Positions 2,427 to 25,559 of a stretch of DNA of 64,000 nucleotides are shown one piece after another. The stretch comes from Chlamydiota bacterium. Lineage in GTDB: Bacteria; Chlamydiota; Chlamydiia; Chlamydiales; Parachlamydiaceae. The number at the start of each line of letters is the position of its first letter. Position 1 is the stretch's first letter. Below the pieces are notes generated by a model. That model had not been told where the DNA came from, made no database searches, and saw nothing but the letters and a program-made list of their open reading frames with translations. Made by a program: the position numbers and the translations under genes. Where the stretch lies: the NCBI GenBank assembly GCA_013285965.1, contig JABDGQ010000001.1, forward strand, positions 63,106-127,105, written 5' to 3'.

Positions 2427-3104
2427 ATGCGCAAACATTTTACCACTGGTTTAGCTCTATTGCTACCGCTAGTTTTAACTGCATTGATTGTCATCTTTAT
2501 CGTTAATTTTTTGACACAACCATTGTATCATTTAGTTGAGAATTGGATAATAGAGTGGAGTAAATATCACCCGGCCTTTGTTTCCATTACCCATCCCACC
2601 GCTTTAATTATAATTAGTAAAGTTTTAATTTTACTTTTTTTAATTACTATGATTTTCATTTTTGGCATTTTTGGTCGCATGCTATTTATGCGTACTGCTT
2701 TTGGTTTTGGTGATTATTTATTGCATCGTGTGCCATTTTTTAATAAATTATACAAAGCCTCGCAAGATGTCATTCATCATTTATTATCTGACTCTAGCAA
2801 AGCCTTTTCACAAGTTGTCTTGGTACCTTTTCCACATGCTAATAGTTTGAGCGTTGGTTTAGTGGTTTGCCATGCCATTAAGGTACATAAAGAAAGAGAT
2901 GAAATGGATTTAATACCAGTATTTATCCCCGGTACCCCTAACCCTTCGGTAGGATTTTTATTAATGTTTTCATCCAATCAACTAATTGAATTAAATATGA
3001 AAGTCGATGAAGCGATGAAATTTATTGTCTCTTGTGCCGTTGTTATGCCTCCTTTTTCAATCGTTGCAAAAAGCCCTAAATCTAGCATAGAAAGCCCAGT
3101 TTGA
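2427..3104 (+). CDS. DUF502 family membrane protein (copy 2)
   Basis: 225-aa paralogue of the preceding gene with the same plan: helices at about 7-30 and 58-83, then TPNPSVGFLLMF and NMKVDEAMKFIVSC. The two proteins share the N-terminal pattern (K-x-F-T/V-TGL...LLPL) and the C-terminal motifs but differ over most other positions, so the duplication is old. The stop codon abuts or overlaps the start of holC, indicating one operon rnr-DUF502-DUF502-holC. Confidence 0.88.
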   Translation: MRKHFTTGLALLLPLVLTALIVIFIVNFLTQPLYHLVENWIIEWSKYHPAFVSITHPTALIIISKVLILLFLITMIFIFGIFGRMLFMRTAFGFGDYLLHRVPFFNKLYKASQDVIHHLLSDSSKAFSQVVLVPFPHANSLSVGLVVCHAIKVHKERDEMDLIPVFIPGTPNPSVGFLLMFSSNQLIELNMKVDEAMKFIVSCAVVMPPFSIVAKSPKSSIESPV

Positions 3105-3106
3105 AA

Positions 3107-3529
3107 ATGCAGGCAAATTTTTATCATCTGAAAACTAATCAAGCTAAAGTAGGATGCATCATAGATATTGCCATGCATGCCATAGATACGGCCCAAAAAT
3201 TACTGATCGTAGTATCTTCAGCTGAAGCTGCTCAATACATTGAAAATGCTTTGTGGAGTTTTAGGCACGAAAGTTTCTTGCCAAGCATAATCACCAATCA
3301 ACCAAATACCAATGGGATTGTCATTACTACTCAGCAGCAAACCAACCTCAATAATGCCCATAATTTATTGAATCTGTGTCAATCCATATCACCTTTATAT
3401 ACACAGGTAAAAGTAATTCATGAAATATACGACTTATCTAATGATCAAAGAAAACAATCTTCGCAAACCCGATTGGACTTCTATATCTCTCAAAATATCA
3501 CCATTGAGCACTCTTCAAATTATGCATAA
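3107..3529 (+). CDS. holC: DNA polymerase III subunit chi (HolC)
   Basis: 140-aa protein resembling the chi subunit of the clamp-loader complex, which links the replisome to SSB. The key resemblance is the segment ALWSFRHESFLPS, matching the family's LW-x-x-x-x-x-S-F-x-P-H pattern after an N-terminal N-x-FYHL strand. ATG 3107 is preferred; an in-frame TTG at 3101 overlaps the upstream TGA and is the alternative start. The C-terminal residues (HSSNYA, then TAA) are encoded by the end of a family-1 inverted-repeat element, so the original terminus has been replaced. The family is divergent, so confidence is moderate. Confidence 0.72.
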   Translation: MQANFYHLKTNQAKVGCIIDIAMHAIDTAQKLLIVVSSAEAAQYIENALWSFRHESFLPSIITNQPNTNGIVITTQQQTNLNNAHNLLNLCQSISPLYTQVKVIHEIYDLSNDQRKQSSQTRLDFYISQNITIEHSSNYA

Positions 3530-3535
3530 GGTGAG
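3509..3535 (+). repeat. Isolated right end of family-1 inverted-repeat element
   Basis: Carries the family-1 right terminal sequence (TTCAAATTATGCATAAGG core, ending GGTGAG) four bases before a nearly full copy. It contains the stop codon of holC. Confidence 0.8.
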
Positions 3536-3538
3536 TAA

Positions 3539-3702
3539 CTCAGCTACGCATAATTTGAACAAGTGATTTTTGACATAGCCTAGAGCTATATATAAGGAGA
3601 CACATTGCAGCAAATAGCCTAAGCTCTTTGCAAAATGTGTCTCCTTTATAGATGCTTTCGGATAGGTACTAAAGGCACTCTTCAAATTGTGCGTAAGGTG
3701 AG
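3539..3702 (+). repeat. Family-1 MITE-like element (164 bp)
   Basis: Nearly full-length copy of a short element with terminal inverted repeats (CTCACCTTACGCATAA... / ...TTATGCGTAAGGTGAG; the left end is slightly degenerate here). Inside is a 13-bp inverted repeat AAGGAGACACATT / AATGTGTCTCCTT that can fold into a hairpin. No coding capacity. It lies between the convergent holC and antiporter genes and supplies coding ends to both. Other copies or parts are near 28961, 29318, 35166, 42570, 42726, 56512 and 58050. Confidence 0.88.
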
Positions 3703-4886
3703 TTATATATGTAGCGCAGAGCAAACGGCGCAAAAAAAGTTGTTAGGAGAATGACTAATATCACAGCAGCATATAAATCATCATTAAAAACTCCCGCACT
3801 TAATGCAATGTTAGCAAAAATCAATCCTACTTCCCCTCTTGGAATCATAGCTGTACCGATTATAAACTTGCTTGCAAAAGTCTCACCCTTGAGCAAAAAG
3901 CCTGAGGCTAATTTTCCAATAACAGCAAAAACAAACAATAATCCAGTTATGGCCCAAATAAAGGACGACTGCCAATCAATGGTGTTGAGATTGAGTGACA
4001 AGCCAATTGCGATAAAGAAAATAGGTGTAAACAAATGGACAATAGGTTTTATTTGCTCCTCTACCCGATCGCTAAATTCAGGTGCTTGTTTTAATATGTT
4101 TTTAAAGGGGAAAACAAATTGTCGCGATAAGGCAAGACCGGCGGCAAAACCACCAAGTAACTCAGGGGCACCTAATTGATAGGCTATCCAGGCAAACAAC
4201 AAAATTAGCGACACAATAATAGTTGGCAAAAGCCCTGGAATATTACTTCGCTCTTCCCATTTCATAATTGTCATCGATACACATTTAACGGCCAATGGAG
4301 CAATTAAGAAAAATAAAACAATAAAAATTAAAACTTTTGCCGCGTTCCAAAAATCAACTGACCCACTCATCGAAAATTCGTATAATAAGGCCAATAAAAT
4401 TATCCCCACAATATCATCCAAAACAGCTGCACCTAAAATGATTTGAGCTTGTGGGCTATTTTGTTTTTGTAAATCGTGCAACACACGCAGTGTGATGCCA
4501 ATGCTAGTAGCCGTTAATGTGCAGCCAATAAATAAGCTCGTCAATAGATTAAAATTAAACCAAAAATAACTGAGGCCAAAGCCTAGAATAAATGGTAAGA
4601 CAACGCCACCAATGGCAACAATGCTAGCTTTAACACCAGCAGATTTGAGTTTTGCTATATCAGTTTCAATGCCAACTTCAAAAAGTAGTAATATAATACC
4701 TATCTGTGCTAATAGGTCGATCGGCAGACTCAACTCAACTAGACCAAGCACACTTGGACCAATTAAAATACCAGCAATTATTTCGCCAATAACGGAGGGA
4801 GCTTTAAAGTAAGCAGCTACTTCCCCTAATAAGCGTGCAGAAAAAAGTATAAGAACTAACTGTATCAAAAATGTATGTGCTTCCAT
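3669..4886 (-). CDS. Kef-type cation/proton antiporter (CPA2 family)
   Basis: 405-aa, very hydrophobic protein with about 11-13 membrane segments across its whole length and no RCK/TrkA-N domain. Motifs of the CPA2/Na+-H+ exchanger fold are visible: LLLFEVGIETD early and AAVLDDIVGIILLALLYE, the paired aspartates being the ion-binding site. It exchanges Na+ or K+ for protons across the inner membrane; the ion cannot be told from sequence. The last codons (NSPYAQFEECL, then TAG) lie inside the family-1 repeat, so the C-terminus is repeat-derived. Upstream, a duplicated 21-bp sequence lies between it and the divergent DUF1207 gene. Confidence 0.88.
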   Translation of the reverse strand: MEAHTFLIQLVLILFSARLLGEVAAYFKAPSVIGEIIAGILIGPSVLGLVELSLPIDLLAQIGIILLLFEVGIETDIAKLKSAGVKASIVAIGGVVLPFILGFGLSYFWFNFNLLTSLFIGCTLTATSIGITLRVLHDLQKQNSPQAQIILGAAVLDDIVGIILLALLYEFSMSGSVDFWNAAKVLIFIVLFFLIAPLAVKCVSMTIMKWEERSNIPGLLPTIIVSLILLFAWIAYQLGAPELLGGFAAGLALSRQFVFPFKNILKQAPEFSDRVEEQIKPIVHLFTPIFFIAIGLSLNLNTIDWQSSFIWAITGLLFVFAVIGKLASGFLLKGETFASKFIIGTAMIPRGEVGLIFANIALSAGVFNDDLYAAVILVILLTTFFAPFALRYIYNSPYAQFEECL

Positions 4887-4917
4887 AACGCCTTACCACC
4901 CTCTCTATAAATCTGAG

Positions 4918-12199: not shown

Positions 12200-12500
12200 A
12201 TGGGAAAAATGTAGATTTCAAACAAATCAGCGTTCATCAAACTCCTGAACGTAGCCCTGGATTTCTCCTTTGGCACATTAGCACTTCGTGGCGTACTTCA
12301 ATCGAAAGTATCCTGAAGCCTATGAATTTAACCCATCCTCAATTCGTTGTTCTTGCCACTTTAGGGTGGCTGACACGAACTGGAGATCGTGTTACTCAGG
12401 CGGCCGTTGGGAAAATGGCAGGGCTTGATCCTAATACAACCTCCCAAATTTTAAAAGGACTTGAGCAGAAGGGCCTAATCGAGCATGATCCCTCTATGCT
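12200..12500 (+). pseudogene. MarR-family regulator, frameshifted and 3'-truncated
   Basis: From ATG 12200 the frame is MGKM then TAG. In the next frame from about 12204 a good MarR sequence runs without a stop: VDFKQISVHQTPERSPGFLL, LWHISTSW, then LTHPQFVVLATLGWLT and winged-helix residues GLDPNTTSQILKGLEQKGLI. One extra A in the A5 tract at 12205-12209 would restore MGKNVDF. Similarity ends near HDPS at about 12495, where the tRNA-like fragment and the recombinase tail begin, so the C-terminal half is missing. It probably once repressed the VOC-EVE-MarR operon. Confidence 0.75.
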
Positions 12501-14021
12501 GGTTTGTGGAAGGAGTACGGACTCGTAACCCGCTGGTCCTTGGTTCAAGTCCAAGTTGCCCCATCCTTTTGGACTCTTCTTATAGTCCACTAGGGTAGTA
12601 AATGGTTCACATGTGTCTATGGAAAGATTTTTACCGTCTAATTTTAAGTTCTGAAACACAAAATTCAAAAGTTGACGTTTTTCATCCACTTCAGAACTTT
12701 CGAAGATTTCTCTAGCGCGAGCGGCCAAGTTCATAACCATATTAGCAGTGACGTAAAAATTTTGGTCTGCCTTTTCATGCCGAGTCATCTGTTCTGTGAT
12801 TTCAATTTGGCGAGCTTTGTAGTCTTTTATCTTGTCGAGATACATCTTCTCATCAATAAGACCGTCTAGCTTATCATCGTATATTTGGTTAATTCGCTTC
12901 TGAATTTTATCTTGCTCTTTTCGCAGAGCTGCTAAACTTTCAGTATGGAAAAGGCTCTCTGATTCATGAATTTTCTTGAGATAGTTCGTCACTTCAGCAA
13001 TCTGTTCTTCACTCAAGGCTATACTATCGAAATAATGTGATAAGGATTCAACCAGCGGTTCTTCACGAACATAAACTTTCTTACAAATACCCTTAGCATT
13101 TGTGCAGCTATAATAAATGTAACGCTTTTTATGGATTTCTGGGGTAACGGTACAGCCACAATGAGAGCATGTAATCATTCCTCGAAGAATAAATGGTTCA
13201 CTAATCTTTTTGTGAGGCTTTTTGTGATACCCTGCAGCGACATTTTGCACTTGTTGATATAAAGATGTCGAGATAATAGGCTTATAGTGGTGCTCAACCA
13301 AACCATATTTTGTCCTCATCACTCCGCAGTAGAAAGGGTTTTTAAGAATGGAATCGATTTGTGATTTAGCTATCTTTTTTCCTTTCTTAGTCTGGAAACC
13401 GACTTTGGCAGCTTCTTCTGTTAATTTTAGAAGGGAATAGTTGCCTGTTGCATACAACTCAAATAGTTTAATGATGTGGAAAGCTCTTTCCGGGTCAGGA
13501 ATAATGTTTTTTTCACCCTTCTCATCTACAACATGAATATAACCTAAAGGTGCAAGCCCAATCCATTTTCCACTTTTTACAGCTTGTTCCTTGCTGCGTT
13601 TAACGTTATCACTCAATTGAAGGACATAGCTGCGAGCAAACATAACCCCCATATCCCAACGAAGAATGTCAGCCGAATTAGATTTTAGGTTAAGTACAAG
13701 CCCCTCTCGCATGAAATGAATTTCGACCTTTCCTTCCTTTCTCAGCTCATCAAGAATCACAGATTCTTTAAAGCTACGCTGTACTCGGTCAATTGTATCT
13801 GCCACTAAGGCAATCGTTTCTTTAGATTTACCAATTTGTGCAATAATTTTTTCAAATTCTTTGCGAGTATCTTTGGTAGACGATTCTGTAATTTTATAAA
13901 CCCGATTAACAATAAGGTTTTTTCTTTCGGCATACTCTATGAGACGACGTTCTTGAGCCGGAATGGATTGACCTTCTTCTTGCTCTTTACTGGAGACTCT
14001 AGCAAGCAATATCGCTTTCAT
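12396..14021 (-). CDS. Large serine recombinase (element A)
   Basis: 541-aa site-specific recombinase. The N-terminal resolvase domain (1-140) has the catalytic serine in LARVSSKEQEEGQS; a recombinase domain (about 160-260) follows, then a zinc ribbon (TCSHCGC ... YSCTNAKGICKK, about 297-325) and a coiled coil (about 365-420). The family-like part ends near LVDYKKSPKG. The rest (WGNLDLNQGPAGYESV...) is the reverse reading of the tRNA-Thr fragment and of marR, so the native C-terminus is uncertain and the last 60 or so residues may be a product of integration. It likely mobilises the element upstream of it (14-17 kb). Confidence 0.85.
   Translation of the reverse strand: MKAILLARVSSKEQEEGQSIPAQERRLIEYAERKNLIVNRVYKITESSTKDTRKEFEKIIAQIGKSKETIALVADTIDRVQRSFKESVILDELRKEGKVEIHFMREGLVLNLKSNSADILRWDMGVMFARSYVLQLSDNVKRSKEQAVKSGKWIGLAPLGYIHVVDEKGEKNIIPDPERAFHIIKLFELYATGNYSLLKLTEEAAKVGFQTKKGKKIAKSQIDSILKNPFYCGVMRTKYGLVEHHYKPIISTSLYQQVQNVAAGYHKKPHKKISEPFILRGMITCSHCGCTVTPEIHKKRYIYYSCTNAKGICKKVYVREEPLVESLSHYFDSIALSEEQIAEVTNYLKKIHESESLFHTESLAALRKEQDKIQKRINQIYDDKLDGLIDEKMYLDKIKDYKARQIEITEQMTRHEKADQNFYVTANMVMNLAARAREIFESSEVDEKRQLLNFVFQNLKLDGKNLSIDTCEPFTTLVDYKKSPKGWGNLDLNQGPAGYESVLLPQTSIEGSCSIRPFCSSPFKIWEVVLGSSPAIFPTAA
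12517..12563 (+). other. 3' part of a tRNA-Thr (anticodon CGT), probable attachment-site remnant
   Basis: Anticodon loop CTCGTAA (anticodon CGT at 12524-12526) with the 3' stem CCCGC, variable loop TGGTC, a perfect T arm (CTTGG-TTCAAGT-CCAAG, 12539-12555), the acceptor 3' strand TTGCCCC and discriminator A (12563). No matching GGGGCAA 5' acceptor strand or anticodon 5' stem is present, so it is not a functional tRNA. It lies under the C-terminal codons of the serine recombinase, as expected of an attachment site. Confidence 0.65.
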
Positions 14022-14061: not shown

Positions 14062-14574
14062 TCAATTCTCTTCGACTTCTTCGATACAATTTTGCGAAAC
14101 AAAGCCAATTTCTATTTCGGCATGAGAGATTCTTGTTGATTGTAAATCTCTTAGCTCAGCAAGGGAGCGAAAAAGAATCTTTTCAAGAGAAGTTTCATAA
14201 CGGCAAAGCAGAGATAATTCATCTCCTTGCCTTCCACTTAAAACATCAGCAAGTCCTCTTCCAAAAGACTTTTTAGTCGCGTGATTCATCAAAATAGATT
14301 CTATTTGCATCATTCTCGACAATCTCCATGCGGCCGTTAATGCTCTTTCAAGAAATAACTTTTCTAATAATCCTTGAGGCTGAAATTGTGAATAAAATTC
14401 TTTCTTTAATTGTTCAAACTCATCAACAGATTCTTCCTTCAGGACAATTTGTTTACTGAAAATGCCATGTTTTATGGCGTTCTTAGCAATTAAGGCTTTC
14501 CCCGTTTCAGTTTTAGGTCCAGTAGAAAGTTTTGCATTCTTAATATTCGCTAAGATTTGTTTTTGCGTTGCCAT
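14062..14574 (-). CDS. GPKT-family protein of unknown function (element A copy)
   Basis: 170-aa protein. The N-terminus has a conserved signature, NIKNAKLSTGPKTETGK followed by A..NA.KHGIFS, then a long alpha-helical region (ALTAAWRLSRMMQIESILM, RYETSLEKILFRSLAELRDL). I know this pattern from uncharacterised proteins of bacterial mobile regions but cannot assign a function. ATG 14574 is chosen because AGGTGAGAG precedes it. The same family occurs at 24233 in element B. It follows the DUF927 gene with a hairpin between them. Confidence 0.75.
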   Translation of the reverse strand: MATQKQILANIKNAKLSTGPKTETGKALIAKNAIKHGIFSKQIVLKEESVDEFEQLKKEFYSQFQPQGLLEKLFLERALTAAWRLSRMMQIESILMNHATKKSFGRGLADVLSGRQGDELSLLCRYETSLEKILFRSLAELRDLQSTRISHAEIEIGFVSQNCIEEVEEN

Positions 14575-14610
14575 CGCTCTCACCTCAACTTAAATTTTTT
14601 AGGTGAGAAT

Positions 14611-14637
14611 TGTGAGAAAGTGAGATTTTTTCTCACA
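14611..14637 (-). terminator. Hairpin between DUF927 and GPKT genes
   Basis: TGTGAGAAA (14611-14619) and TTTCTCACA (14629-14637) form a perfect 9-bp stem with a 9-nt loop, preceded by a further GTGAGAATT copy. It could be a partial terminator or a protein-binding hairpin; there is no clear U-run for the minus-strand transcript. Confidence 0.5.
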
Positions 14638-14675
14638 TTATCACCAATATCACCGTTTATGTAGTCTCATACAAA

Positions 14676-16391
14676 TTATTCTTTTCCGCCTGGAATCTTT
14701 TGAAATCTGTAACATCTTACAGGACCTATGCTTGGAAGGCTTTCTGTTCGAGTGGATTTGTGGTCAGTTGAAGGCTTCAGGTATCCTTTCTCTACCAAAA
14801 TTTTCGCAGCACGTTTCCAGTCGTGACCCTGACAAAGTTCATTTTTAAAGACCTCTTCCAAAACATAATATTCTGTTCTATCTCCCTCAGTTTTTTTGAA
14901 GCCCGCTCTGTTATAAGTTTTTGTATCGAATTCGCTATACCAATTAGAGAAACGGCTATCTCCATGCATTTCAAAGAAGAGCTGAATTTTAGAAAGGATT
15001 TTCTTTTCTTCTATATTTTGGTCATCTCCTCGATGCTCTAGCCAGTCAGTAAAACATCTGCCAGCACCAGATTTGGCAAAGCCTTTTTCCCATGGAATAA
15101 TCCCAAAATAAATAGCTAACTCTCCACCAGCAGCCACAAGTCCAAAACGACGTCCTACGCGTTTTACTTGTCCTGATGAACCCTTAGGAACATATTCTTG
15201 TACGAAAGTATCTATAGTAGCATCAACAGCTGACTTAACCATTTCATGATTTTCAGAAAGATAGGCGATGTATTCCCGTCCAGCGACTCCATGGCATTCT
15301 CTTGCTGCTTCAGCAATCGCATTAGCAAAACTTGCTCCATCAACATACTGGTGCAAAAACTCGAAAACCCCATAAGGACCTAAATCAGCTGGGATATCAG
15401 CTATTCGTGTTTCTTGACCCGCTTTAGCTTTTTTTCCGTCTTCAAGCATATGCTGAGCAAGACTGATTTCTCCGGTGGACAAAAAGAGGCACCGAAACTT
15501 TGCTTTATCTCTAGCTCCTCCTGTTTTATCGGCTCTCGCCTTTCCTGTGCCATTTCCAAGCATATAGGCAACTTCTCCTGCCTCTTTCGGATTAATTTCT
15601 CCCATTTCGTCTAGAGGCAATAAAAGGTCATTATACATTTTGGCCGTGGCTTCTAGTCCATTAGCTGTTGACCGCCAACGTTGGATGTAATCTTTTCCTC
15701 CAAATAAGGAAGCAGCCACGTAAAGAGAAGTCGTCTTGCCTGTGCTACTTGCTCCGCGAAGATGAAAACCGCCATTTTCTTCATGACAAATGCCTAAAAG
15801 AGGGCCTGCAAATGCTGCACTTAAAGAGAAAATTAAACGTGAATTGCCAATACAGGGAGTAGCAATGCGGGTTTGCCATTCCTTTAGACTTCCTAAAGAA
15901 TGAAAGATGGGTTGTCCAACATGTGACCCCAAAAACAATACTTTTTCTTTTGATTGTTTGCCTATCGGACCTTCAGGTAGTATATAAGATTGACCATGCC
16001 ATCCTGTTCTATCTATAGTTCTTACGCGGTCAATTGGGTCACATGATAAAAGATATCGAGTGAGAAGGTCTTTAGCTCTCCGCTCCTCTCCAATTTTTAA
16101 TCCCATTGATAGCAGGGTTTTTCTTACTTCACTGCCATCGCCAGCAAGTAATTCTTGAGGCATGAGCCATTCATGTAAGTTATTATCCGGGTCATAAAAC
16201 TGCAGTAGTTTGGAGTAATTTTCGTGACGCTCATTGCGCGCATATGCAAGAACGTATAAGGGAGCGCACACAAAAATTCTTTGAATTTCATTTCCCTGTG
16301 AGCTTAGATACCAAACACCTTCCTGGTTTAGCTCAAATCCCACTCCAAGTGGATAATTAATTTCTTTTAATTTTTCCTGTTTTGAAGACAT
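14676..16391 (-). CDS. DUF927-family ATPase (mobile-element helicase/primase-like)
   Basis: 571-aa protein. The central DUF927 domain carries a P-loop (RGASSTGKTTSLYVAASLF, about residues 213-231), a Walker-B-like segment (DLLLPLDEMGEI) and the region SLAQHMLEDGKKAKAGQETR seen in DUF927 proteins. These are encoded by phages, plasmids and chromosome cassettes and are thought to act in element replication; the exact reaction is unproven. A winged-helix-like C-terminal region (WKRAAKILVEKGYLKP) may bind DNA. It is in line with the SpoVG-like gene upstream and the GPKT gene downstream. Confidence 0.82.
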   Translation of the reverse strand: MSSKQEKLKEINYPLGVGFELNQEGVWYLSSQGNEIQRIFVCAPLYVLAYARNERHENYSKLLQFYDPDNNLHEWLMPQELLAGDGSEVRKTLLSMGLKIGEERRAKDLLTRYLLSCDPIDRVRTIDRTGWHGQSYILPEGPIGKQSKEKVLFLGSHVGQPIFHSLGSLKEWQTRIATPCIGNSRLIFSLSAAFAGPLLGICHEENGGFHLRGASSTGKTTSLYVAASLFGGKDYIQRWRSTANGLEATAKMYNDLLLPLDEMGEINPKEAGEVAYMLGNGTGKARADKTGGARDKAKFRCLFLSTGEISLAQHMLEDGKKAKAGQETRIADIPADLGPYGVFEFLHQYVDGASFANAIAEAARECHGVAGREYIAYLSENHEMVKSAVDATIDTFVQEYVPKGSSGQVKRVGRRFGLVAAGGELAIYFGIIPWEKGFAKSGAGRCFTDWLEHRGDDQNIEEKKILSKIQLFFEMHGDSRFSNWYSEFDTKTYNRAGFKKTEGDRTEYYVLEEVFKNELCQGHDWKRAAKILVEKGYLKPSTDHKSTRTESLPSIGPVRCYRFQKIPGGKE

Positions 16392-16426
16392 AAACTCTTA
16401 CCTTTTTGTTACTTTTTTCTTAATAT

Positions 16427-16690
16427 TCATAGACCCATTAGTTCTTCTGCTTTGCTGCAAATAGCTTGCTCCATCTCTTTGCTGAAACTCGGTTCTGTGG
16501 GATGGAAAATCGTTTGATTCTGGTCACCTACTTTTTTAGTAGGGTAAGTGATTCTATAACCAATGCCATCACGTCTTTTGTGGACGCCGATTGAGCTAAT
16601 GTAGAATTGGTTATTAATCTCCACGCACGCAAATGCCATCAAGCCGTTGTTTGGCTTGATTGGAAGAAGCTCCACTTTGATTGTGTTCAT
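16427..16690 (-). CDS. SpoVG-domain DNA-binding protein
   Basis: 87-aa protein matching the SpoVG family fold: IKVELLPIKPNNGLMAFACV, then FYISSIGVHKRRDGIGYRIT and TIFHPTEPSFSKEMEQAI. SpoVG proteins bind DNA/RNA and regulate transcription. ATG 16690 fits the family N-terminus; a TTG at 16717 is an alternative. It overlaps the preceding small frame by 77 bp in another frame and lies 35 bp upstream of the DUF927 gene. Confidence 0.75.
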   Translation of the reverse strand: MNTIKVELLPIKPNNGLMAFACVEINNQFYISSIGVHKRRDGIGYRITYPTKKVGDQNQTIFHPTEPSFSKEMEQAICSKAEELMGL

Positions 16691-16814
16691 AAAGTTCCGG
16701 GTTGTTACGTTTATCAATTGTCATCAACAATTCAAAAAATCGAGCTAATCGCTGAGAGTCATTCAACGAAAGAACAGATTGAGTGGATTGACTTGATGAT
16801 TTTTTGCTTTTCAT
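16614..16814 (-). CDS. Small hypothetical protein upstream of SpoVG-like gene
   Basis: 66-aa frame from ATG 16814 (MKSKKSSSQSTQSV..., with LNDSQRLARFFELLMTIDKR). The first 44 residues have a credible helical composition, while the last 25 are read in the frame overlapping SpoVG and look random, so this may be a gene whose original end was lost. A TATAAT lies 9 bp before the ATG. No family recognised. Confidence 0.4.
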   Translation of the reverse strand: MKSKKSSSQSTQSVLSLNDSQRLARFFELLMTIDKRNNPELYEHNQSGASSNQAKQRLDGICVRGD

Positions 16815-16991
16815 ACCCCGAATTATATCACATTTACCGCCTGTTTTCGGGCTATTGGGAGCATTCCCATGGCTCTCTAGGAAAGGTTTTTGACCGAGTG
16901 GTATAAAAAATGGAATTTGAGGCAAAAAATGCTTTTTCTTCGGTAAATGAGCTGATATGCTCTGCGACAAAGAAGTAGTAAAAAGGTAATC

Positions 16992-18293
16992 ATGACTCGA
17001 ACTCAGGTCTTAAAATCCAGTATTAAACTTCCCAAAAGCTTTGAACCTATACAAAGCCTTGTTGAGTCTGCTTACAAGCAAAAAGACGAATCTGAGTTCT
17101 TTAAGCTATTATGTGAAAGTATCATGTCTTTATTGCAAACGTATCCTCTTCTAGGCACATTGAGAGCTAAATGGCAAGAGGAAGAGAGGGCATTCGAAAA
17201 TGAGCTTCGCTCGACTGAGGATTTAGCTAAAAGGCAAGTAAGGAAAACGTATGCATTTTTCTTGGAATTGCTCAAAAATGAAGATATTGGGTCCATTTCT
17301 GGCTTTCAGGATGAACTAAAGCGAGCTGATGACCTTCTAGAAAACCGTGAAATCCATCATGACGGTAGAGAATATGAAAAAGCTTATGATGTTCTTTGCA
17401 AGCTTTGCTCTATTCTTTTAAAACATGGAAAATCAGAGAGCATAACTGGTTTAGTCACAATTGAATCAAGAGAGCAATATGTTTTAAGCAGTGGCTCATA
17501 TCAGCCAAAATCAGTTCCATTCATTTCAGGTTTTTGTTTTGGAGCTGCTGTTCGTAAAATGCAAGCAATGTTAGCTTCCTGGAATCAAAATAATTCGCCT
17601 GACTGGATGATTTGGAAACGTCTTTGTAATGCTACATGGGCATGGAATGCTTCCATGGATATTTTTGAGGATAAAGAACTTAATTTCTCTACTCCTATTC
17701 TGCGAAAAAGGTCGAATCGTGCAAGAGGTATAAGCATCGATATTAAAAAAATGCATGCTTTAAAAAATGAAAAGATTCAAAATCCTAATCCAGACCGCTA
17801 TTTTAGCAAAGATAGATTTCAGCTGTTTCTAAAAACAATCATAGAACGAATAGCTGCTGAATTAGCTCAAAAGCACGCTGAAGTTTATGACAACGATGAG
17901 ATTGATGTTCATGCTATGGAATTAGAGAAGACTGGTAACGAATTGTGGATTAAAATTGAATGGAAAGAGGGACTACCTATCGAACAATTTTGCTTAAAAT
18001 CCAACATCCAAACTGGGAAGATAACAGACCAATTTATTGATATATTAATGAAAGCTGCTCCTAATTCCACCTTTGCTGTACCTGACCGTTCTCCAGCTGA
18101 CCTCATTCAACGTTGTCATTTAAGAGATGCTGGGCTTAAAGAATTATTTTTTGGAGAATGCACAAAAAAACATCTTACTTTCAAAGGAATCAGGATTGAA
18201 AAACAATCTATAAAGAATGAAAAGCTTGCTGAGCTGCTAATCTATCTTCAAAAATGTCATGCAGCTTCTGGGTCTCCAATTCGGTTTAATTGA
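16992..18293 (+). CDS. Hypothetical protein, 433 aa
   Basis: Unrecognised. Mostly alpha-helical and charged, no signal peptide or membrane segment, with an early acidic helical region (about 60-150) and a middle part with FISGFCFGAAVRKMQAMLAS. A short RBS (AAGG) precedes ATG 16992. It is transcribed away from element A and sits between the two integrated elements, so it may be cargo of either one. Confidence 0.7.
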   Translation: MTRTQVLKSSIKLPKSFEPIQSLVESAYKQKDESEFFKLLCESIMSLLQTYPLLGTLRAKWQEEERAFENELRSTEDLAKRQVRKTYAFFLELLKNEDIGSISGFQDELKRADDLLENREIHHDGREYEKAYDVLCKLCSILLKHGKSESITGLVTIESREQYVLSSGSYQPKSVPFISGFCFGAAVRKMQAMLASWNQNNSPDWMIWKRLCNATWAWNASMDIFEDKELNFSTPILRKRSNRARGISIDIKKMHALKNEKIQNPNPDRYFSKDRFQLFLKTIIERIAAELAQKHAEVYDNDEIDVHAMELEKTGNELWIKIEWKEGLPIEQFCLKSNIQTGKITDQFIDILMKAAPNSTFAVPDRSPADLIQRCHLRDAGLKELFFGECTKKHLTFKGIRIEKQSIKNEKLAELLIYLQKCHAASGSPIRFN

Positions 18294-18398
18294 GAATACA
18301 GGACTAAACATTTAAGTAGATTTTTTCAAAAATTTTTGGTAACCTCGCATCTCTTTATAATGTATGAACAAAGCAGGCTTTTATACTTTTGGGACGAT

Positions 18399-19046
18399 AT
18401 GAACAAGAAAAATTTATTGATTTGGAGAATAATTTTAGGAGTAGGACTAATGTCTTTTTGTAATCATAGCCATGCAGAAAACGTACAAATTGTTACTATA
18501 GATAGCCCCTTAAGCCATATCTTAAAAACCAAAACAGAAGATATCCAAATTGATGAATTAACCTTAGCTCAAGAAATTCTTGACAAGTTATTTCTAGCTC
18601 TCAAACCTTATTTGCCCGCCGCAGGATTAGCGGCTCCTCAGATTGGCATAAGTAAATCTATATTTATATTTAGTTTTGACCGCAATCCAAATAATCTTGA
18701 AGGAGTAATTAACCCATCTTTCATTCCGATAGGAGATACAAAAATAGAAGGATGGGAAGGGTGTTTTTCAGTCATGTTAAGTAATGGGATGTGGAAGCTG
18801 GCAAAAATTCCTCGTTATGAAAAAATTCAAGTTAAATATTTAAATATAAAAGGTGAAAAAGTAGAAAAATTCCTTGAAGGATTTGCAGCGAAAGTATTTC
18901 AACATGAATATGACCATTTACAGGGAATTGAAAATATTGACCGAGAAGATGCTATTGTGTTGGATTTTACTACTCAAGAAGAAATGCTAAGCTTTATGCA
19001 GGAGGTTAAAAAAGAAGATTCTGTTCATTATAAAAAACCAAATTAA
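18399..19046 (+). CDS. def: Peptide deformylase-family protein with predicted signal peptide
   Basis: 215-aa member of the peptide deformylase fold. All three metal/active-site motifs are recognisable: AAGLAAPQIGI (motif 1), EGCFS (motif 2, normally EGCLS) and QHEYDHLQGI (motif 3, HExxH). Unlike ordinary Def it has an N-terminal hydrophobic segment after a Lys pair (MNKKNLLIWRIILGVGLMSF, then CNHSHA), which looks like an export signal. ATG 18399 is chosen because the 21 codons before it do not look like the family. It is probably a second, horizontally acquired deformylase of unclear substrate. Confidence 0.82.
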   Translation: MNKKNLLIWRIILGVGLMSFCNHSHAENVQIVTIDSPLSHILKTKTEDIQIDELTLAQEILDKLFLALKPYLPAAGLAAPQIGISKSIFIFSFDRNPNNLEGVINPSFIPIGDTKIEGWEGCFSVMLSNGMWKLAKIPRYEKIQVKYLNIKGEKVEKFLEGFAAKVFQHEYDHLQGIENIDREDAIVLDFTTQEEMLSFMQEVKKEDSVHYKKPN

Positions 19047-19301
19047 TATCACATAAAAATTAACTTAATTGAATGGGATTATTTTTTTTGCGATTATTTT
19101 CCAATCCAAAGTTCTGAATCCGTCCAACCGCCCCCACTTTTTATCCAGTGCCCACAAGCGCCTACAAGCACGATTCAGCTTGATTCAATAATATTGTTTA
19201 AGCTAAATAGAAATGCTTGCGGTGCAAATTCGGTGCAGTAAAGAACAATCTTAACAAGCACTATCCAGCCGCTCGAACCATAAACACTATGAGGTTTGAG
19301 T
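19047..19301. other. Non-coding gap upstream of tyrosine integrase with possible arm/attachment sites
   Basis: No gene seen. At 19218-19238 there is TGCGGTGCA-N5-GGTGCAG, two direct GGTGCA units; the same layout occurs at 27349-27369, after the island genes. The position next to an integrase gene suggests an attachment region, but no longer repeat was found by eye. Confidence 0.35.
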
Positions 19302-20375
19302 ATGGCATCTATTTATAGACGTAAAGACAGAGAAGGTAAACCCTGCGGATGGAGAGCTGTCGTTCGCATCAAGGGTCACCCTTCCGTTTGCAATCAATTC
19401 GAAAGAAAGCAAGAGGCTGAAGATTGGGCTCTTTCGGTTGAGCGACAGATCAAGCAAGGACAATTTAAATTCGAAAGGCATAAAGTTCAACGCACATTTT
19501 CTGAACTGGTTGATCACTTTGTGCAAAGCGGTGCATTGGAACATCACCGCTCAGCCAAAGATACTGTTCGACATCTTGAGTATTGGAAAAGTCGTATCGG
19601 GGATTATGCCCTTGTTCACTTAACTCCTGAACGTTTGGGTAAGGAAAGACAATTCCTTATTGATACCCCGACACATAAAAGCACTAAGCGATCATCTGCT
19701 ACAGTCAATCGCTACATTGCTTCGCTATCAGCCGCATTGACTTATGCCTGTCGTCAATTACGTTGGATCGATGATAACCCCTGTTTCAATCTAATCAAGC
19801 TTAAAGAAGCTCCTGGAAGAGATCGAGTGCTGAATGAAGATGAGACTGTCAGGCTTCTTGAAGTCTGCCGTAAAAGTCGATGTGATTATCTTTATTGCAT
19901 CGTACTCATGGCCTTCACTACAGGCATGAGACAAGGTGAAATTTTAGGTCTTACATGGAATCAGGTCGATTTTGAAAATCAAATGGCGCACCTCAAAGAA
20001 ACGAAAAATGGAACGCCTAGAAGTGTTCATTTAATTGACGCAGTCGTCCAAGAATTGAAGGTGTTAGTCGAAAATCGCAATCCCGCTAAATCATTCGTAT
20101 TTGCAAGTAAAACGGCTTTTGGAGCGCTAGACATCAACAAGCCCTGGAAAGAGGCTCTTAAGCTGGCTAATATTGAAAATTTCGTCTTCCACAGCATTCG
20201 TCATCATTTTGCTACTCTTGCAGCTCGATCAGGGGCAAGTAATCTTCAACTTAAGGCAGCATTAGGTCACAAGACATTGCAAATGCTCGAGCGCTATACC
20301 CATTTAGATGTCCAAACAACCCGTCTTTTAAGTCAGCAAGTCTCCCAAAAAATTTTAGGTGAAAAAAATGAGTAA
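19302..20375 (+). CDS. Tyrosine recombinase/integrase (element B)
   Basis: 357-aa phage-type integrase. An arm-binding-like N-terminus (MASIYRRKDREGKPCGWRA) and a SAM-like core-binding domain (about 60-150) precede the catalytic domain with AFTTGMRQGEILGLTW (first Arg), HSIRHHFATLAARSG (H-x-x-R) and LGHKTLQMLERYTHL (His and nucleophile Tyr). All catalytic residues are present, so it is probably active. ATG 19302 has GAGG upstream; TTG 19296 is the alternative. It overlaps the next gene by 8 bp. Confidence 0.92.
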   Translation: MASIYRRKDREGKPCGWRAVVRIKGHPSVCNQFERKQEAEDWALSVERQIKQGQFKFERHKVQRTFSELVDHFVQSGALEHHRSAKDTVRHLEYWKSRIGDYALVHLTPERLGKERQFLIDTPTHKSTKRSSATVNRYIASLSAALTYACRQLRWIDDNPCFNLIKLKEAPGRDRVLNEDETVRLLEVCRKSRCDYLYCIVLMAFTTGMRQGEILGLTWNQVDFENQMAHLKETKNGTPRSVHLIDAVVQELKVLVENRNPAKSFVFASKTAFGALDINKPWKEALKLANIENFVFHSIRHHFATLAARSGASNLQLKAALGHKTLQMLERYTHLDVQTTRLLSQQVSQKILGEKNE

Positions 20376-21387
20376 AGAATTAGAGGAAGCAAAAAGCATG
20401 CTAAATGACCTTGAAAATGATCTAAAAGAATTGGAAGCCTTTTATAATCAAGTTAGAATTGACAATCCCTGTTTTTCCCCAGTTTCAAATCAAGAATGGG
20501 AGAGAAAGAAAGCCTATTGTTGGATACATGGGGCTACTGAATTACATGAAACCAATGAGTTAGAACGATGGTTATTCGACCATCCTCCACTTTCGGATTT
20601 TGCCAAAGAAAACGCAACTGAATGTGTTAGATGTTGGCGTGAATGGCTAGAAATGAAAGATGCCTATTATGAACCTTTTGAAGCTTTTGAATTTGAAAAA
20701 CCTCTTGAAGAAGAAACCTTAAGGGAATTTCTGATCAGGATGGCTAGAAAAGTTCAAGAAGAAGGAAAAGGAGCACGCTTAGAATGGCGTGCTCTTAAAA
20801 GCTTTTTGTCCTATTTGCGTAAGATGCCTCAAGAATGGATTGCGTTTATTGAGCAAATTTTCCCGCAAAAAATGGGATTTTCAGGCGATCAAATCATTAG
20901 AAAAATTTCCCCTGAAGTATATCCTATCCCTTATGAAATTGCCGCTCGCATTCTTTTAGAATTAGCCCGACAGTGTCGGTTTAGTCGAACTAATGCTCAA
21001 CTAGCTGCGGCAGAAAGTTTAGGACTTTGTTGGATATGCTTAAGCGCCTCTCGTCTTCGCTTGCCTATCCATTTGGAGTCAATTCAACCTATCGAAACCA
21101 AAGCGATTCAATTGGATAATGATTTTCCCCTGCTTAAAGTACCAACATTGTTTGGTGATCGAACAGTTCGAATATCAACACGGGTTGCTGAATATCTCGA
21201 TCGCCTTTCCCGTATTCCATCAAAAAAGTCTAGAACAACTATTTTACAAAGCCCAGTCCGTACGCTAGCTCGAACTTTGGATAGAGCTTTAGCGAATCTT
21301 GAGTTAGAATCTTTGGGCAATATTACATATGTGACTTTCCTTAGCTATCCGCACCATTTTGGCAATCATCGATACCAACCTAAATAA
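20368..21387 (+). CDS. Integrase-coupled hypothetical protein
   Basis: 339-aa protein. A predicted coiled coil at the N-terminus (SKELEEAKSMLNDLENDLKE) is followed by a basic alpha-helical C-terminal half (about 190-339, with SASRLRLPIHLESIQPI and RTLARTLDRALANLELESLG). The C-terminal half loosely recalls the tyrosine-recombinase fold, but no catalytic Arg/His/Tyr set can be lined up, so this is only a suggestion. The 8-bp overlap with the integrase gene argues for a partner role in recombination. Confidence 0.65.
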   Translation: MSKELEEAKSMLNDLENDLKELEAFYNQVRIDNPCFSPVSNQEWERKKAYCWIHGATELHETNELERWLFDHPPLSDFAKENATECVRCWREWLEMKDAYYEPFEAFEFEKPLEEETLREFLIRMARKVQEEGKGARLEWRALKSFLSYLRKMPQEWIAFIEQIFPQKMGFSGDQIIRKISPEVYPIPYEIAARILLELARQCRFSRTNAQLAAAESLGLCWICLSASRLRLPIHLESIQPIETKAIQLDNDFPLLKVPTLFGDRTVRISTRVAEYLDRLSRIPSKKSRTTILQSPVRTLARTLDRALANLELESLGNITYVTFLSYPHHFGNHRYQPK

Positions 21388-21504
21388 CTGATAAACAAAC
21401 AGTTATCGATTAAGAAAAAAGTGTCCACCACCGTGCCGACATGATTCAGGAGTAATAAATTACAATAAGCGCAAACCCTTTTTAAACAACAGGAGGAGGC
21501 GTTT

Positions 21505-21708
21505 ATGAGTGATTATCAATACTTATCAATCAAACAAATAACTGACAGATATCCATTCACGGCTGGGCAAGTTAGGCATTTTCTTACTATGCGGCATCGT
21601 AATGGCTTGGAAGGTGCGATTCGCAAAATAGGAAAACGGGTTTACATCCGTTTAGACCTTTTTCAAAGTTGGATTGAATCTCAAGGTTCAAAAGGAGGTG
21701 TATCATGA
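21505..21708 (+). CDS. HTH/excisionase-like DNA-binding protein
   Basis: 67-aa protein with a MerR/AlpA-type helix-turn-helix: YLSIKQITDRYPFTAGQVRHFL, then AIRKIGKRVYIRLDLFQSWI, the usual 'key strand plus wing' of excisionase-like proteins. A strong RBS (AGGAGG) precedes it. It likely acts as recombination directionality factor or regulator for element B. The stop overlaps the next ATG (ATGA). Confidence 0.78.
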   Translation: MSDYQYLSIKQITDRYPFTAGQVRHFLTMRHRNGLEGAIRKIGKRVYIRLDLFQSWIESQGSKGGVS

Positions 21709-22013
21709 AACGATACCCTCGCTTTGACATAAGCGAAATGAAGCGGCAGATTCGCCCTTATGACTTTTATCTCAAAGAACAAGGCTTAAATCGATTTGCT
21801 CACCGTTCTCGTCAATGGGCTACGGCAGGTCTGTGTCCCTTTCATGAAGATAGTTCGGCTGGATCATTTAAAATCCATGAGGAATCAGGAGCTTATATCT
21901 GCTTTTCCTGTGGAGCTAAGGGCGGAGACATTATCGATTTTTTACAAAAAAAATATCACCTCTCATTTAAAGAAGCCATCGCAAAACTTAAAGATGAATG
22001 GAGGATTGTATGA
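21705..22013 (+). CDS. CHC2 zinc-finger (DnaG-type primase N-terminal) protein
   Basis: 102-aa protein consisting of a primase zinc-binding domain: ligands in LCPFHEDSSAGSF and YICFSCGAKGGDIIDFLQ. The rest of a primase (Toprim and helicase-like parts) is in the next gene, which overlaps by 4 bp (ATGA), so the two form a split primase of element B. Confidence 0.85.
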   Translation: MKRYPRFDISEMKRQIRPYDFYLKEQGLNRFAHRSRQWATAGLCPFHEDSSAGSFKIHEESGAYICFSCGAKGGDIIDFLQKKYHLSFKEAIAKLKDEWRIV

Positions 22014-24167
22014 ACTTACCTCCTATCGTCAAAAGAGAGCACTTAACCTTCCATTGGTATTACAGAAATGAAAGGGATGACATTACCGCATTAGTTGCAA
22101 GGTATGACAACCCTATTCAATCCAAGCAAAAGAAATGGTTTCATCAGTATTACATCGATAAAAATAGAAATTGGGTAGAAGGAGCTGTCACTCCTTCGCC
22201 CCTATTTGGAATTGATACGCTTCCTAAAAATGATTCTGATCAAATGGTCTATATTTTTGAAGGAGAAAAATGTACACAGGCTGCGCATCATTTAAATTTA
22301 CCTGCACTTACTTCAATGATGGGGTCTAATCAATCCCATCTTGCAGATTGGGCTGTATTAGCTCGTTATCGGCATCTCAAAGGTTTTGTTTTGATTCCTG
22401 ATAATGATGCTGCAGGAAAGAAATACATTAGGTCTATTTACGATGAAATCCAAAAGGCATGTCCCCATACCAGTATTTGGGTCTTAACTCTTCCTAATCA
22501 AGAAAAAGGAGCTGACTTCGTTGATTGGATTCAATCTAATCCTTATTGTCCTCCAGAATGGAAGGGATTCGGCCCAATTGATGATCCAAATTGCCAATAT
22601 CTAAAACAAGCTTTTGAATCCTATGTTAAAGAAAATTATACTTTGGCAAATGAGTATTTTTCCGATTCCGATGAAAATAATTTAACATTTGAAAATGATC
22701 CAGAACCACTTGAGGCAGATTTAAACAAAGTTTTGCCATGTCCTATTGAGACATTCCCCTATCAAGTTAAAGGCTGGATTCAAGCTTTGACCAATCAGAT
22801 GCAGATTTCCCCAGATTATATTGCAGCGGCGTTGATTGTTCATATTGGGAGCTTGATTGGAAGAAAACGAGGTCTTGAGCTTAGACCTAGAACGAATTGG
22901 ATTGAATTCCCCAATTTATGGGGAATGCTTATTGGCAGACCCTCTTCTATGAAAAGTGTTGCCTTACAATCAGTCATCAAACCTCTTATAGCTTTAGGAG
23001 ATCAAGCAAGATCCAAATATAAGCAGGATATGAAACGCTTTGAAATTGAATTGGAAGCCTGGGAAATGCAGAAAAAAGCACATCAGGAAAAATACAAGAA
23101 TTCTTTCAAAGAGTCCAAGTTAAAAGAATTTTCTACTACCGAATATAACCCGACCGATCCTCCAGAAAAACCTAAGCAGAAACGATATAAATCTGATGAT
23201 CCGACAGTTGAAAAATTGGGGGTTATATTGGCAGAAAATCCTCAAGGCATCTTACTTTATCGAGATGAGCTTGCTGGATGGCTAAATAGTTTTCAAAAAA
23301 AGGGAAGAAAATGACTGACCATTTTTTCTAGAAGGATGGAGCGCTAAACAGGGTTTTGAGATTGATCGAATAGGGCGGGAAGCTCCTCACATTGAAGCGG
23401 TCTGTATTTCGATTTTAGGAGGCATACAACCAGGTCCAATTTCGCAACATGTTCATTCTGCCATTAATGGCGGAATGGGTGATGATGGACTCATTCAACG
23501 TTTCCAAATCACGGTATGGCCAGATAGCAAACCCGTTTGGGAACTTGTTGAAAATATTGATCTAGGGATTTGGGAGCCATGGATTTATCAGATTTTCAAT
23601 AATTTGGATCAAATGCAATTCCATAGCGGACAACCGATTATTTTGTCATTTAATAGAGAAGCTCAAGCTTTGTTTGATCAATGGCAAAAAGAACTGGAAA
23701 ATAGACTACGCAAGGGAAACTTGCCTCCGCATATGGAAGCCCATCTTGGTAAGTACAAAAAGCTACTACCTGCCCTATGCTTGATATTTGAACATATGCA
23801 ATCGGCTTTAGATAACGAATATCCACAGCATATCACACCTCAATGCGTACAAAAGGCAATCATTTGGTTAAAATATTTCGGAAGCCATGCAGAGCGTATT
23901 TATGGAAGCTCTGCTCATGCAATTCCTCAAGCTGCCACTAATCTTATTCGTCGCATTCAACAGAAAGAAGTCAAGATCCCATTCACAGCTAGAGATGTTT
24001 ATCATGGCCGTCATTGGGCTGGGCTATCAAATGCCGATGAAGTGGAAGAGGTTTTAGAATATCTAATCGAAAAGAACTGCATAAAATGTTCTACCCTACA
24101 GACGTCTGGTAGGCCAACCAAGAAATATTGGGTGCATCCCAAAATTTTGGAACAAAATGATCAATAA
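22010..24167 (+). pseudogene. Toprim-DUF3987 primase/helicase, broken by frameshift and TGA
   Basis: One ancestral protein of about 718 aa read in two frames. Part 1 (22010-23314) has a Toprim domain (YIFEGEKCTQAAHHLNLPAL, IPDNDAAGKKYI) and the start of DUF3987 with GRPSSMKSVALQSVI (P-loop position) and LLYRDELAGWLNSFQKKGR. The frame then shifts by one base near 23306. The continuing frame meets TGA at 23316-23318, where related proteins would have a sense codon, before PFFLEGWSAKQGFEIDRIGR and the rest (to 24167, with IQRFQITVWPDS). Two separate lesions make it a real pseudogene rather than a sequencing slip. Confidence 0.85.
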
Positions 24168-24168
24168 A

Positions 24169-24218
24169 CAAAAGTTCAAAAGGTCCAAAAGGGTGCTTAT
24201 GAACCTTTTGAACTTTTG
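24169..24218 (+). terminator. Large hairpin between DUF3987 and GPKT genes
   Basis: Perfect 16-bp arms CAAAAGTTCAAAAGGT (24169-24184) and ACCTTTTGAACTTTTG (24203-24218) around an 18-nt loop, directly after the stop codon of the upstream gene and 14 bp before the GPKT start. It lacks a GC-rich stem and U-tail, so a regulatory or protein-binding role is as likely as termination. Confidence 0.55.
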
Positions 24219-24819
24219 AAAAAGGAGACAGTATGAATAATAAAGCCATAACTAACCGAACGAATGCTCTTAAATCTACGGGACCTAAAACGAAAAAAGG
24301 CAAAGCCATTGCCAGCCAAAACGCCATGAAGCATGGCCTACTTTCACAAAAATTGATTCTCGAAGAAGAAAGCCATCAGGAATTTGATTGTTTTAGACAA
24401 AAGCTTTATCAAGCCCTACTCCCAATCGGTGCTTTAGAAGAAATCTTAGTCGAAAAAATTGTCAGCTCAGGATGGCGATTTCGACGCCTTATCAAAGTTG
24501 AGAAAAGTTTTTTCGAAGAAGAAGACGAGTATGCTCTACGTCCGCCAGAATTTTGCGATGCCTTTAAAAAGTCTGGGGGTAATTACATGCAAATTTTATC
24601 TAGATATGAATCAGCCATAGAGAAAAGCTTTTATAAAGCAATTCATGAACTTCAGCGAGTTCAGGGTATGCGATTGGGTCAGCCAGTACTTGCTCCGATC
24701 GCATTAGACATTAATGTAAGCGATATCAATGAAGTTGGCTTCGTTTCGTAAAATGAATCTTGTTAGAGATAAAAATTCTATGCGGGAGTTCATTTCAAAA
24801 GTTCAAAAGGTTCATAAGC
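24195..24819. repeat. 24-bp inverted repeat pair flanking the GPKT gene
   Basis: 24195-24218 (GCTTATGAACCTTTTG... end) is repeated exactly, inverted, at 24796-24819 (CAAAAGTTCAAAAGGTTC...). The two copies bracket the 519-bp GPKT gene at 24233-24751 and nothing else. Confidence 0.7.
24233..24751 (+). CDS. GPKT-family protein of unknown function (element B copy)
   Basis: 172-aa protein of the same family as 14062-14574: signature LKSTGPKTKKGKA followed by ..NAMKHGLLSQKLILEEES, then helical segments with VSSGWRFRRLIKVEKSFF and RYESAIEKSFYKAIHELQRV, and a hydrophobic/Asn end. Spacing between the conserved blocks is similar in the two copies. An AAGGAG RBS lies 6 bp upstream of the ATG. Function unknown. 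It is the last gene of element B and is bracketed by a perfect 24-bp inverted repeat. Confidence 0.75.
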   Translation: MNNKAITNRTNALKSTGPKTKKGKAIASQNAMKHGLLSQKLILEEESHQEFDCFRQKLYQALLPIGALEEILVEKIVSSGWRFRRLIKVEKSFFEEEDEYALRPPEFCDAFKKSGGNYMQILSRYESAIEKSFYKAIHELQRVQGMRLGQPVLAPIALDINVSDINEVGFVS

Positions 24820-24918
24820 CCTAGTTCTTATTCAATAAAATCGTTCATAACTTGGAGAAGTGTCCATGATTGACTTATTTACGGCGATACGGTATTATAT
24901 AGGAAAAGGAGATTGTTT

Positions 24919-25179
24919 ATGAAACAGCAACAGCAACATCATCAAAAACAGGATACCGTTCGTTTAACGATCGATTTCCCTGTAGATCAACATACATACA
25001 TTAAGATGTTAGCGGCCAAAGAAGGTGTCAGCTTAAGGCAATTCGTTATTGAGCACTTACCAAGTCTTGAAAAAAGCAAGGAAAAGCATAAAGACATCGA
25101 AAAAGATGAATTTGATGAATTGTTAAAAGAATTACTCGTAGAAAAAGCTGATGTATTGAAGAGATTATCCAAGAAATGA
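24919..25179 (+). CDS. RHH-type antitoxin (partner of Doc)
   Basis: 86-aa protein. A Gln/His-rich leader (MKQQQQHHQKQ) is followed by a ribbon-helix-helix-like segment (TVRLTIDFPVDQHTYIKMLA, then AKEGVSLRQFVIEHL) and an acidic/basic C-terminal helix (DEFDELLKELLVEKADVL) of the kind that masks a toxin. ATG 24919 follows AAAAGGAG. The last bases overlap the Doc start (ATGA), which is typical for antitoxin-toxin pairs. Confidence 0.78.
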   Translation: MKQQQQHHQKQDTVRLTIDFPVDQHTYIKMLAAKEGVSLRQFVIEHLPSLEKSKEKHKDIEKDEFDELLKELLVEKADVLKRLSKK

Positions 25180-25559
25180 TTAAATACCTAGCTCTCGAGC
25201 AAGTTATCAAAATGCATGATGCGTTTATCGAAAAATTTGGCGGGCTTCAAGGGATTAGAGACATGAATCTTTTATTGTCTGCCATCGAAACACCTAAAGC
25301 GGCTATGTTTGGTACCGACCTATACCACACTATTTATGATAAGGCCGCCGCTTACTTGTATCATATTGTGCAAAATCATCCATTTAATGATGCAAATAAG
25401 CGCACTGGTTTCGGTGCAACTTATTTATTTCTGAAAGCAAATAATGTAAATTTTTTATTTGATGATGCATCATTCGAAAACTTAATAATAGAGGTTGCAA
25501 AAGGGAAAAAAACAAAAAAAGAAATTTCTCATTTTTTTGAGCATGGCCAGAATGAGTGA
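25176..25559 (+). CDS. Doc-family (Fic fold) toxin
   Basis: 127-aa protein with the Doc/Fic active-site motif HPFNDANKRTGFGATYLFLK (about residues 67-86) and the N-terminal Doc pattern YLALEQVIKMHDAFIEKFGG. Doc toxins inactivate translation by phosphorylating EF-Tu. All motif residues are intact. It overlaps the antitoxin by 4 bp and the following kinase-like gene by 8 bp. Confidence 0.9.
   Translation: MIKYLALEQVIKMHDAFIEKFGGLQGIRDMNLLLSAIETPKAAMFGTDLYHTIYDKAAAYLYHIVQNHPFNDANKRTGFGATYLFLKANNVNFLFDDASFENLIIEVAKGKKTKKEISHFFEHGQNE

Follow-up and report, generated by a model that had tools for sequence, protein, structure and literature searches.

The stretch of DNA analysed in this study (hereafter the window; 64,000 nucleotides, positions 63,106 to 127,105 of contig JABDGQ010000001.1, assembly GCA_013285965.1) derives from a metagenome-assembled genome of a member of the Chlamydiota (1.46 Mb, 61.6% complete). 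It contains two integrated elements, each of which carries a gene of the family referred to here as GPKT, after a motif common to its products. The order of genes in element 1 is SpoVG-like, DUF927, GPKT and large serine recombinase, with a divergent gene encoding a 433-amino-acid (aa) protein beyond. Element 2 is composed of genes for a tyrosine integrase, an overlapping 342-aa protein, a small helix-turn-helix (HTH) protein, a CHC2 protein, a Toprim-DUF3987 protein, GPKT, ParD and Fic. The initial annotation of the window had described the recombinases and helicases of these elements as unrelated, and had placed both GPKT genes directly after a replication-type gene. Family matches of the window proteins agree with the former statement, and the latter also holds, since the preceding gene encodes DUF927 in element 1 and the C-terminal half of Toprim-DUF3987 in element 2.

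The window contains both of the GPKT genes found in its genome. Their products share 31% identity over 167 residues (E 2e-32), i.e. over nearly their full length and far beyond the motif alone, which corroborates their earlier assignment, made from the GPKT signature, to a single family. The closest relatives on named contigs come from Parachlamydiales, 'Candidatus Anoxychlamydiales' and other Chlamydiota. Two forms of the protein can be distinguished (of about 170 and about 288 aa), which have the N-terminal hundred residues in common and a similar C-terminal RYE...LQ helix. As an open reading frame, GPKT 1 begins at a GTG codon (14062-14583, minus strand, 173 aa); the family alignment moves its start to the ATG at 14574. 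The fold predicted by AlphaFold (AF2 monomer) is a long helical hairpin (pLDDT 81).

We showed that the association with a replicase, originally noted for two element types, is general in the Chlamydiota. GPKT genes are present in 37 of the 234 genomes of this phylum that were searched (most of the genomes compared being draft assemblies), and 28 of the 31 genes encoding at least 130 aa in the loci fetched directly follow a replicase gene. The exceptions are two loci with no recognisable replicase directly upstream (L050 and L036) and one which begins at a contig end (L066). The position of GPKT is almost invariant and co-directional with the replicase, which can be of five types: (i) DUF927, (ii) CHC2 with AAA_25, (iii) CHC2 with Toprim-DUF3987, (iv) RepB primase-DUF3987, and (v) a DUF5906 helicase with a separate primase. 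There are entire GPKT clades that remain with a single type of element. In the tree of the family, GPKT 1, which is linked to DUF927, falls within a nine-row clade (support 100/100) composed of six AAA_25-linked and three DUF927-linked members (L048 among the latter).

Nearly every gap between the replicase gene and GPKT contains a palindrome. The hairpins reported in the initial annotation at 14611-14637 and 24169-24218 were found at these positions, and both exceed all 100 dinucleotide shuffles of their own gaps. The first is a perfect 9-bp inverted repeat (TGTGAGAAA...TTTCTCACA) within a larger iteron-like array, and the second has perfect arms of 16 bp. More generally, 21 of the 27 chlamydial gaps have an inverted repeat that was reached by at most one of 100 dinucleotide shuffles. 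Short repeats spaced by about 9 bp make up the arms, in the manner of iterons, and the repeat unit varies with the helicase: GTGAGA accompanies DUF927, TTTCCGA accompanies AAA_25, ATAAAC-type units accompany most CHC2-DUF3987 proteins, and GCTAAT accompanies RepB-DUF3987. Among gaps which differ in their slot gene, those of one helicase class have on average 10.8 six-mers in common, compared with 1.6 where the classes differ (p 0.0005), whereas among gaps of different helicase class the possession of the same slot gene makes no difference (p 0.69). Within the nine-row GPKT clade every locus bears the palindrome of its own helicase, and thus the helicase and its palindrome seem to have been exchanged together. 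The palindrome is also retained in loci lacking GPKT (L146, L158, L186, L187 and L198), in the first two of which DUF927 is followed directly by the serine recombinase.

Because its sequence follows the helicase class rather than the slot gene, and because it persists in the absence of GPKT, the palindrome is most likely the replication origin of the helicase and not the target of GPKT. This view gains from the fact that the origins of Staphylococcus aureus pathogenicity islands (SaPIs) and of the staphylococcal cassette chromosome (SCC) are located just downstream of the Rep or Cch2 gene, where the helicase binds inverted and direct repeats (PMC7581432). Helicase classes carry relatedness of their own, so the link between palindrome and helicase is an association and not proof of binding; it provides a list of candidate origins, with one sequence class per helicase class.

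The initial annotation had proposed that the hairpin may be the target of GPKT, an idea that we rejected on the basis of the above comparison of six-mers. A related explanation, that GPKT binds the palindrome and in this way regulates copy number or transcription, draws on the location of the palindrome directly upstream of the gene, where it could hold an operator, and on a further palindrome copy downstream of GPKT 2. This explanation appears improbable, since the palindrome changes with the helicase while the GPKT clade stays constant, is not associated with the slot gene and is retained where GPKT is missing. The downstream copy is a single repeat of part of the second hairpin; it was not seen in other loci, and was discarded as a general feature. 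The palindromes are situated just past the stop codon of the helicase gene, and their transcripts would fold, which might indicate intrinsic transcription terminators of the helicase gene unrelated to replication. We consider this highly improbable, given that no T-run follows them in the loci read, that their arms are repeats specific to the helicase class, with the spacing described above, and that the GPKT gene comes directly afterwards on the same strand.

Other proteins can occupy the same slot. After several DUF3987 genes it is filled by an 82-aa-type protein with an HGG_STG domain (NF041373, E 2e-11 to 9e-15), which has STGPKT..GK...HG in common with GPKT; most of these loci encode a further protein (about 200 aa) in between. 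In other slots we identified HTH proteins matching the small terminase (TerS) family phrog_2538 (E 6e-14, 5e-10, 1.5e-10 and 2.4e-7). At locus L210 the slot protein matches GP3_package (P22-type small terminase) above the curated Pfam cut-off, and the next gene, which overlaps it, encodes a large terminase (TerL; phrog_2, 1.3e-33). A RepB-DUF3987 helicase and a GCTAAT palindrome directly precede this pair (2927-4910), which occupies the slot that GPKT takes elsewhere, although the P22 gp3-type protein has no detectable sequence relation to GPKT. 

In Rossellomorea phage phiT1, Bacillus phage vB_BboS-125 and a Halobacillus plasmid-prophage, the gene preceding that of the large terminase encodes a protein of the HGG_STG (HGGxSTG) type, and such proteins are annotated as small terminases in several phages. 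A comparison of the GPKT profile with these phage proteins gave a probability of 96.7% and an E-value of 3e-10 (in a single comparison) over 61 columns. The two groups have a similar layout, in which STGxxT-x-x-GK...KHG-x-x-S precedes a helical region, and the slot of sister chlamydial elements can likewise hold an HGGxSTG protein. GPKT differs in the lack of the Cys/His zinc-knuckle part, of a recognised large terminase next to it and of any match to NF041373 at an E-value of 1 or below.

Taken together, these observations lead us to propose, tentatively and with somewhat less than even confidence, that GPKT is a TerS-like DNA-recognition protein, encoded in the slot behind a helicase and its own palindromic origin in elements resembling phage-inducible chromosomal islands (PICIs) and phage-inducible chromosomal minimalist islands (PICMIs). 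A slot reserved for a packaging-specificity protein, of which GPKT would be one small-terminase-like member, is the simplest single account. Each element would contain a replication module, in which the primase/helicase is followed by an iteron-like palindrome acting as its origin, and the gene placed after this module would encode the DNA-recognition protein, GPKT being one of several unrelated proteins able to fill the position. In a cycle like that of PICIs and PICMIs, the element would excise and use its own helicase to replicate from the palindrome; the role of GPKT would be to mark the DNA of the element for the large terminase of a helper phage. Among the roles listed in the initial annotation (replication, copy control or packaging), that of a packaging accessory fits best in view of the TerS-type substitutes in the slot; the part concerning the hairpin as its target finds no support.

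Several results weigh against this proposal. GPKT has no direct match at useful E-values in Pfam, PHROG or NCBIfam; with TerS profiles, GPKT 1 reached only E 0.18 (phrog_1889) and 0.046 (NF040601), and GPKT 2 gave none. A Foldseek search of the predicted model against PDB and BFVD revealed no significant relative, and the profile alignment with the phage HGG_STG-type proteins is limited to the N-terminal part, where it spans the motif and the beginning of the helices. Among 50,697 phage records there were no matches to GPKT proper, and the one match in IMG/VR comes from a replicase/restriction element that is not clearly a phage. Scans of the genes next to GPKT in the mapped loci, which did not cover every neighbour, recognised no large terminase. 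The Terminase_6N large terminase, the only TerL model searched across the phylum, was detected in 10 of the 234 Chlamydiota genomes and not in the 61.6%-complete genome of the window. GPKT genes of Planctomycetota, Acidobacteriota and Verrucomicrobiota are mainly chromosomal, often multi-copy and without a constant partner, and copies in the first two phyla adjoin housekeeping genes. Finally, a role in replication only would explain the constant replicase neighbour equally well. As GPKT has no direct TerS profile match, TerL neighbour or fold match, we say that it works like a small terminase, and not that it is one.

The main rival explanation is that GPKT is a replication accessory of the helicase (involved in single-strand binding, loading or priming), a counterpart of LP1413 or MP in SCCmec with no part in packaging. 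The replicase neighbour is constant whatever its type, and the link extends to a plasmid of the cyanobacterium Picosynechococcus (PriCT-2 primase followed by GPKT), to 'Candidatus Theseobacter' (Prim-Pol-DUF5906, a 191-aa primase-like reading frame, GPKT, HTH protein and serine recombinase) and to the IMG/VR contig, where GPKT stands beside the replicase as in Chlamydiota. Small partners of Cch and Cch2 do act in replication (PMC7581432). Nevertheless, we regard such a role as less likely than the terminase-like one: one GPKT clade is combined with several unrelated helicases, which would be odd for a dedicated partner, the same helicase and palindrome also occur in elements lacking GPKT, TerS-type proteins take the slot elsewhere, and GPKT matches no sequence of solved structure at an E-value of 1 or below.

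The model of a PICMI satellite comprises an integrase, AlpA and a DUF3987/DUF5906 primase, and a gene overlapping the integrase gene is often present (PMC10803314), while some PICIs carry a small terminase of their own (PMC6092414). Judged by sequence, the elements described here resemble them in the integrase, the integrase-overlapping gene, the HTH regulator, the DUF3987 primase and the iteron-like repeats after the replication gene. The integrase (PF00589, or PF00239 with PF07508) is present in the window elements. Element 2 has the primase (PF13148, 5e-35, in a broken gene) and an AlpA candidate (PF05930/PF12728) whose match to PF12728 (E 0.0046) falls under the cut-off; element 1 has DUF927 instead of the primase. 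They differ from PICIs and PICMIs in being known without a fis site or helper phage, and element 1 in its combination of a serine recombinase with DUF927. This combination, and the presence of inverted and direct repeats beyond the helicase gene, recall SCC and SCCmec elements with their Cch/Cch2, LP1413, MP and Ccr proteins (PMC7581432). The scores of the recombinase and helicase against the SCC equivalog models were far below the cut-offs (90.5 bits against 900 for CcrB; 45 against 700 for Cch1), and LP1413 and MP are encoded ahead of the helicase, GPKT behind it.

The chromosomal, multi-copy GPKT genes outside the Chlamydiota weaken any family-wide claim of a mobile-element replication protein. 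The initial annotation had named members mostly outside mobile elements, or with no constant partner, as evidence against its view, and the outcome is divided, as linkage to a replicase prevails in the Chlamydiota while the genes of the other phyla are mostly chromosomal. The housekeeping neighbours include what we take, from reading the sequences, to be his genes in L106 and glycogen genes in L096. Some Acidobacteriota genomes contain 11-26 matches, 26 being the maximum seen per genome. In the planctomycete B3_Pla (L086, L090-L095, L098, L099 and L119-L125), GPKT forms a dispersed unit of about 1.15 kb present at unrelated sites, with ATCAGTGTnn-type repeats upstream and CAAAGCCAAT repeats at the 3' end; many of the copies are found at contig ends. 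The units of B3_Pla, with their common flanking repeats, and the high copy numbers in Acidobacteriota might suggest that GPKT is a selfish or housekeeping gene which settles behind replicases by chance, as a dispersed unit of its own. The almost invariant, co-directional position in Chlamydiota and the clades which keep one element type make this improbable. A match on a Fischerella plasmid was dropped, as its frame differs from that of the annotated gene. In three planctomycete loci (L084, L087 and L097) the protein has a C-terminal tail of CETNPI, KTNPI or KQTQF, which gives the impression that the reading frame continues into a family of DNA repeats.

It is possible, if rather doubtful, that these elements represent a widespread and unrecognised chlamydial family of phage-satellite-like elements, in which an interchangeable helicase and its palindromic origin precede a packaging-specificity gene that is itself interchangeable, and that GPKT constitutes a new terminase-like family which has spread beyond phages into the chromosomes of Planctomycetota and Acidobacteriota. 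If so, satellite-like elements equipped with origins and packaging-type genes would imply the existence of helper phages, and of a route of gene transfer between obligately intracellular chlamydiae. The tailed phages of environmental chlamydiae are poorly known. A literature search of incomplete coverage yielded nothing joining "phage satellite" and "Chlamydiota", and no text containing STGPKT or HGGxSTG. The proposal offers a first functional lead for a widespread family that has no Pfam, PHROG or NCBIfam model.

Features of the two GPKT-bearing elements (window positions)
Feature	Position	Strand	Remarks
Large serine recombinase, element 1	12396..14021	-	Resolvase, Recombinase and zinc ribbon domains
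GPKT protein 1	14062..14574	-	ATG start favoured by family alignment; proposed small-terminase-like DNA-recognition protein
Iteron-like palindrome, GTGAGA/TCTCAC type, DUF927-GPKT gap	14601..14657	-	Proposed origin bound by DUF927 helicase
DUF927 (Cch-like) replicative helicase	14676..16391	-	PF06048 1e-83; phrog_1139 6e-89
SpoVG-like gene, head of element 1 operon	16427..16717	-	PF04026 9e-9
Conserved divergent gene of serine-recombinase elements, cluster c6	16992..18293	+	Recurs in sister elements
Tyrosine integrase, element 2	19296..20375	+	PF00589 7e-33
Integrase-overlapping gene, cluster c8	20359..21387	+	Positional counterpart of PICMI iolg (PMC10803314)
Small HTH_17-like (AlpA/excisionase-type) gene	21505..21708	+	PF12728 E 0.0046 (weak, under cut-off)
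CHC2 primase zinc-finger protein	21705..22013	+	PF01807 9e-16
Toprim-DUF3987 primase/helicase, broken	21998..24167	+	PF13148 5e-35
Palindrome, DUF3987-GPKT gap, units CAAAAGTT/CAAAAGGT	24169..24218	+	Proposed origin
GPKT protein 2	24233..24751	+	172 aa
Second copy of palindrome arm, downstream of GPKT 2	24796..24818	+	Repeat of part of second hairpin

The DUF3987 gene of element 2 is split into two frames (21998-23314 and 23475-24167), with a frame change near 23300 beside an A-run. The break may reflect decay, an assembly error or frameshifting; as the helicase gene is broken in the assembly, this copy of the element may be decaying or misassembled. Direct repeats were sought as attachment sites; none was convincing and the element ends were not located. 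The tail of the serine recombinase reading frame (12396-12560, of LDLNQGPAGYE type) lies outside the recombinase domains; the frame possibly extends into unrelated sequence where the element ends. The SpoVG-like gene recurs before the helicase in sister serine-recombinase elements, and a Pfam search with the cluster c6 protein gave no match. In about half of the tyrosine-integrase elements, the integrase gene is overlapped by the one that follows it.

The genes after the terminase pair of L210 resemble kdp potassium-transport genes, so no capsid genes follow it. Another observation concerns a family of proteins of about 200 aa ending in HV-x-V-x-x-GG-KAIVGN (L170, L174, L178, L187 and L142), which had no match in PHROG; its genes either separate DUF3987 or DUF927 from the HGG_STG gene or occupy the slot by themselves. 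In the window, a peptide deformylase gene (18336-19046) lies between the two elements, and the GPKT gene of element 2 is directly followed by a ParD-like antitoxin gene and a Fic/Doc gene (24913-25559), which overlap by four bases.

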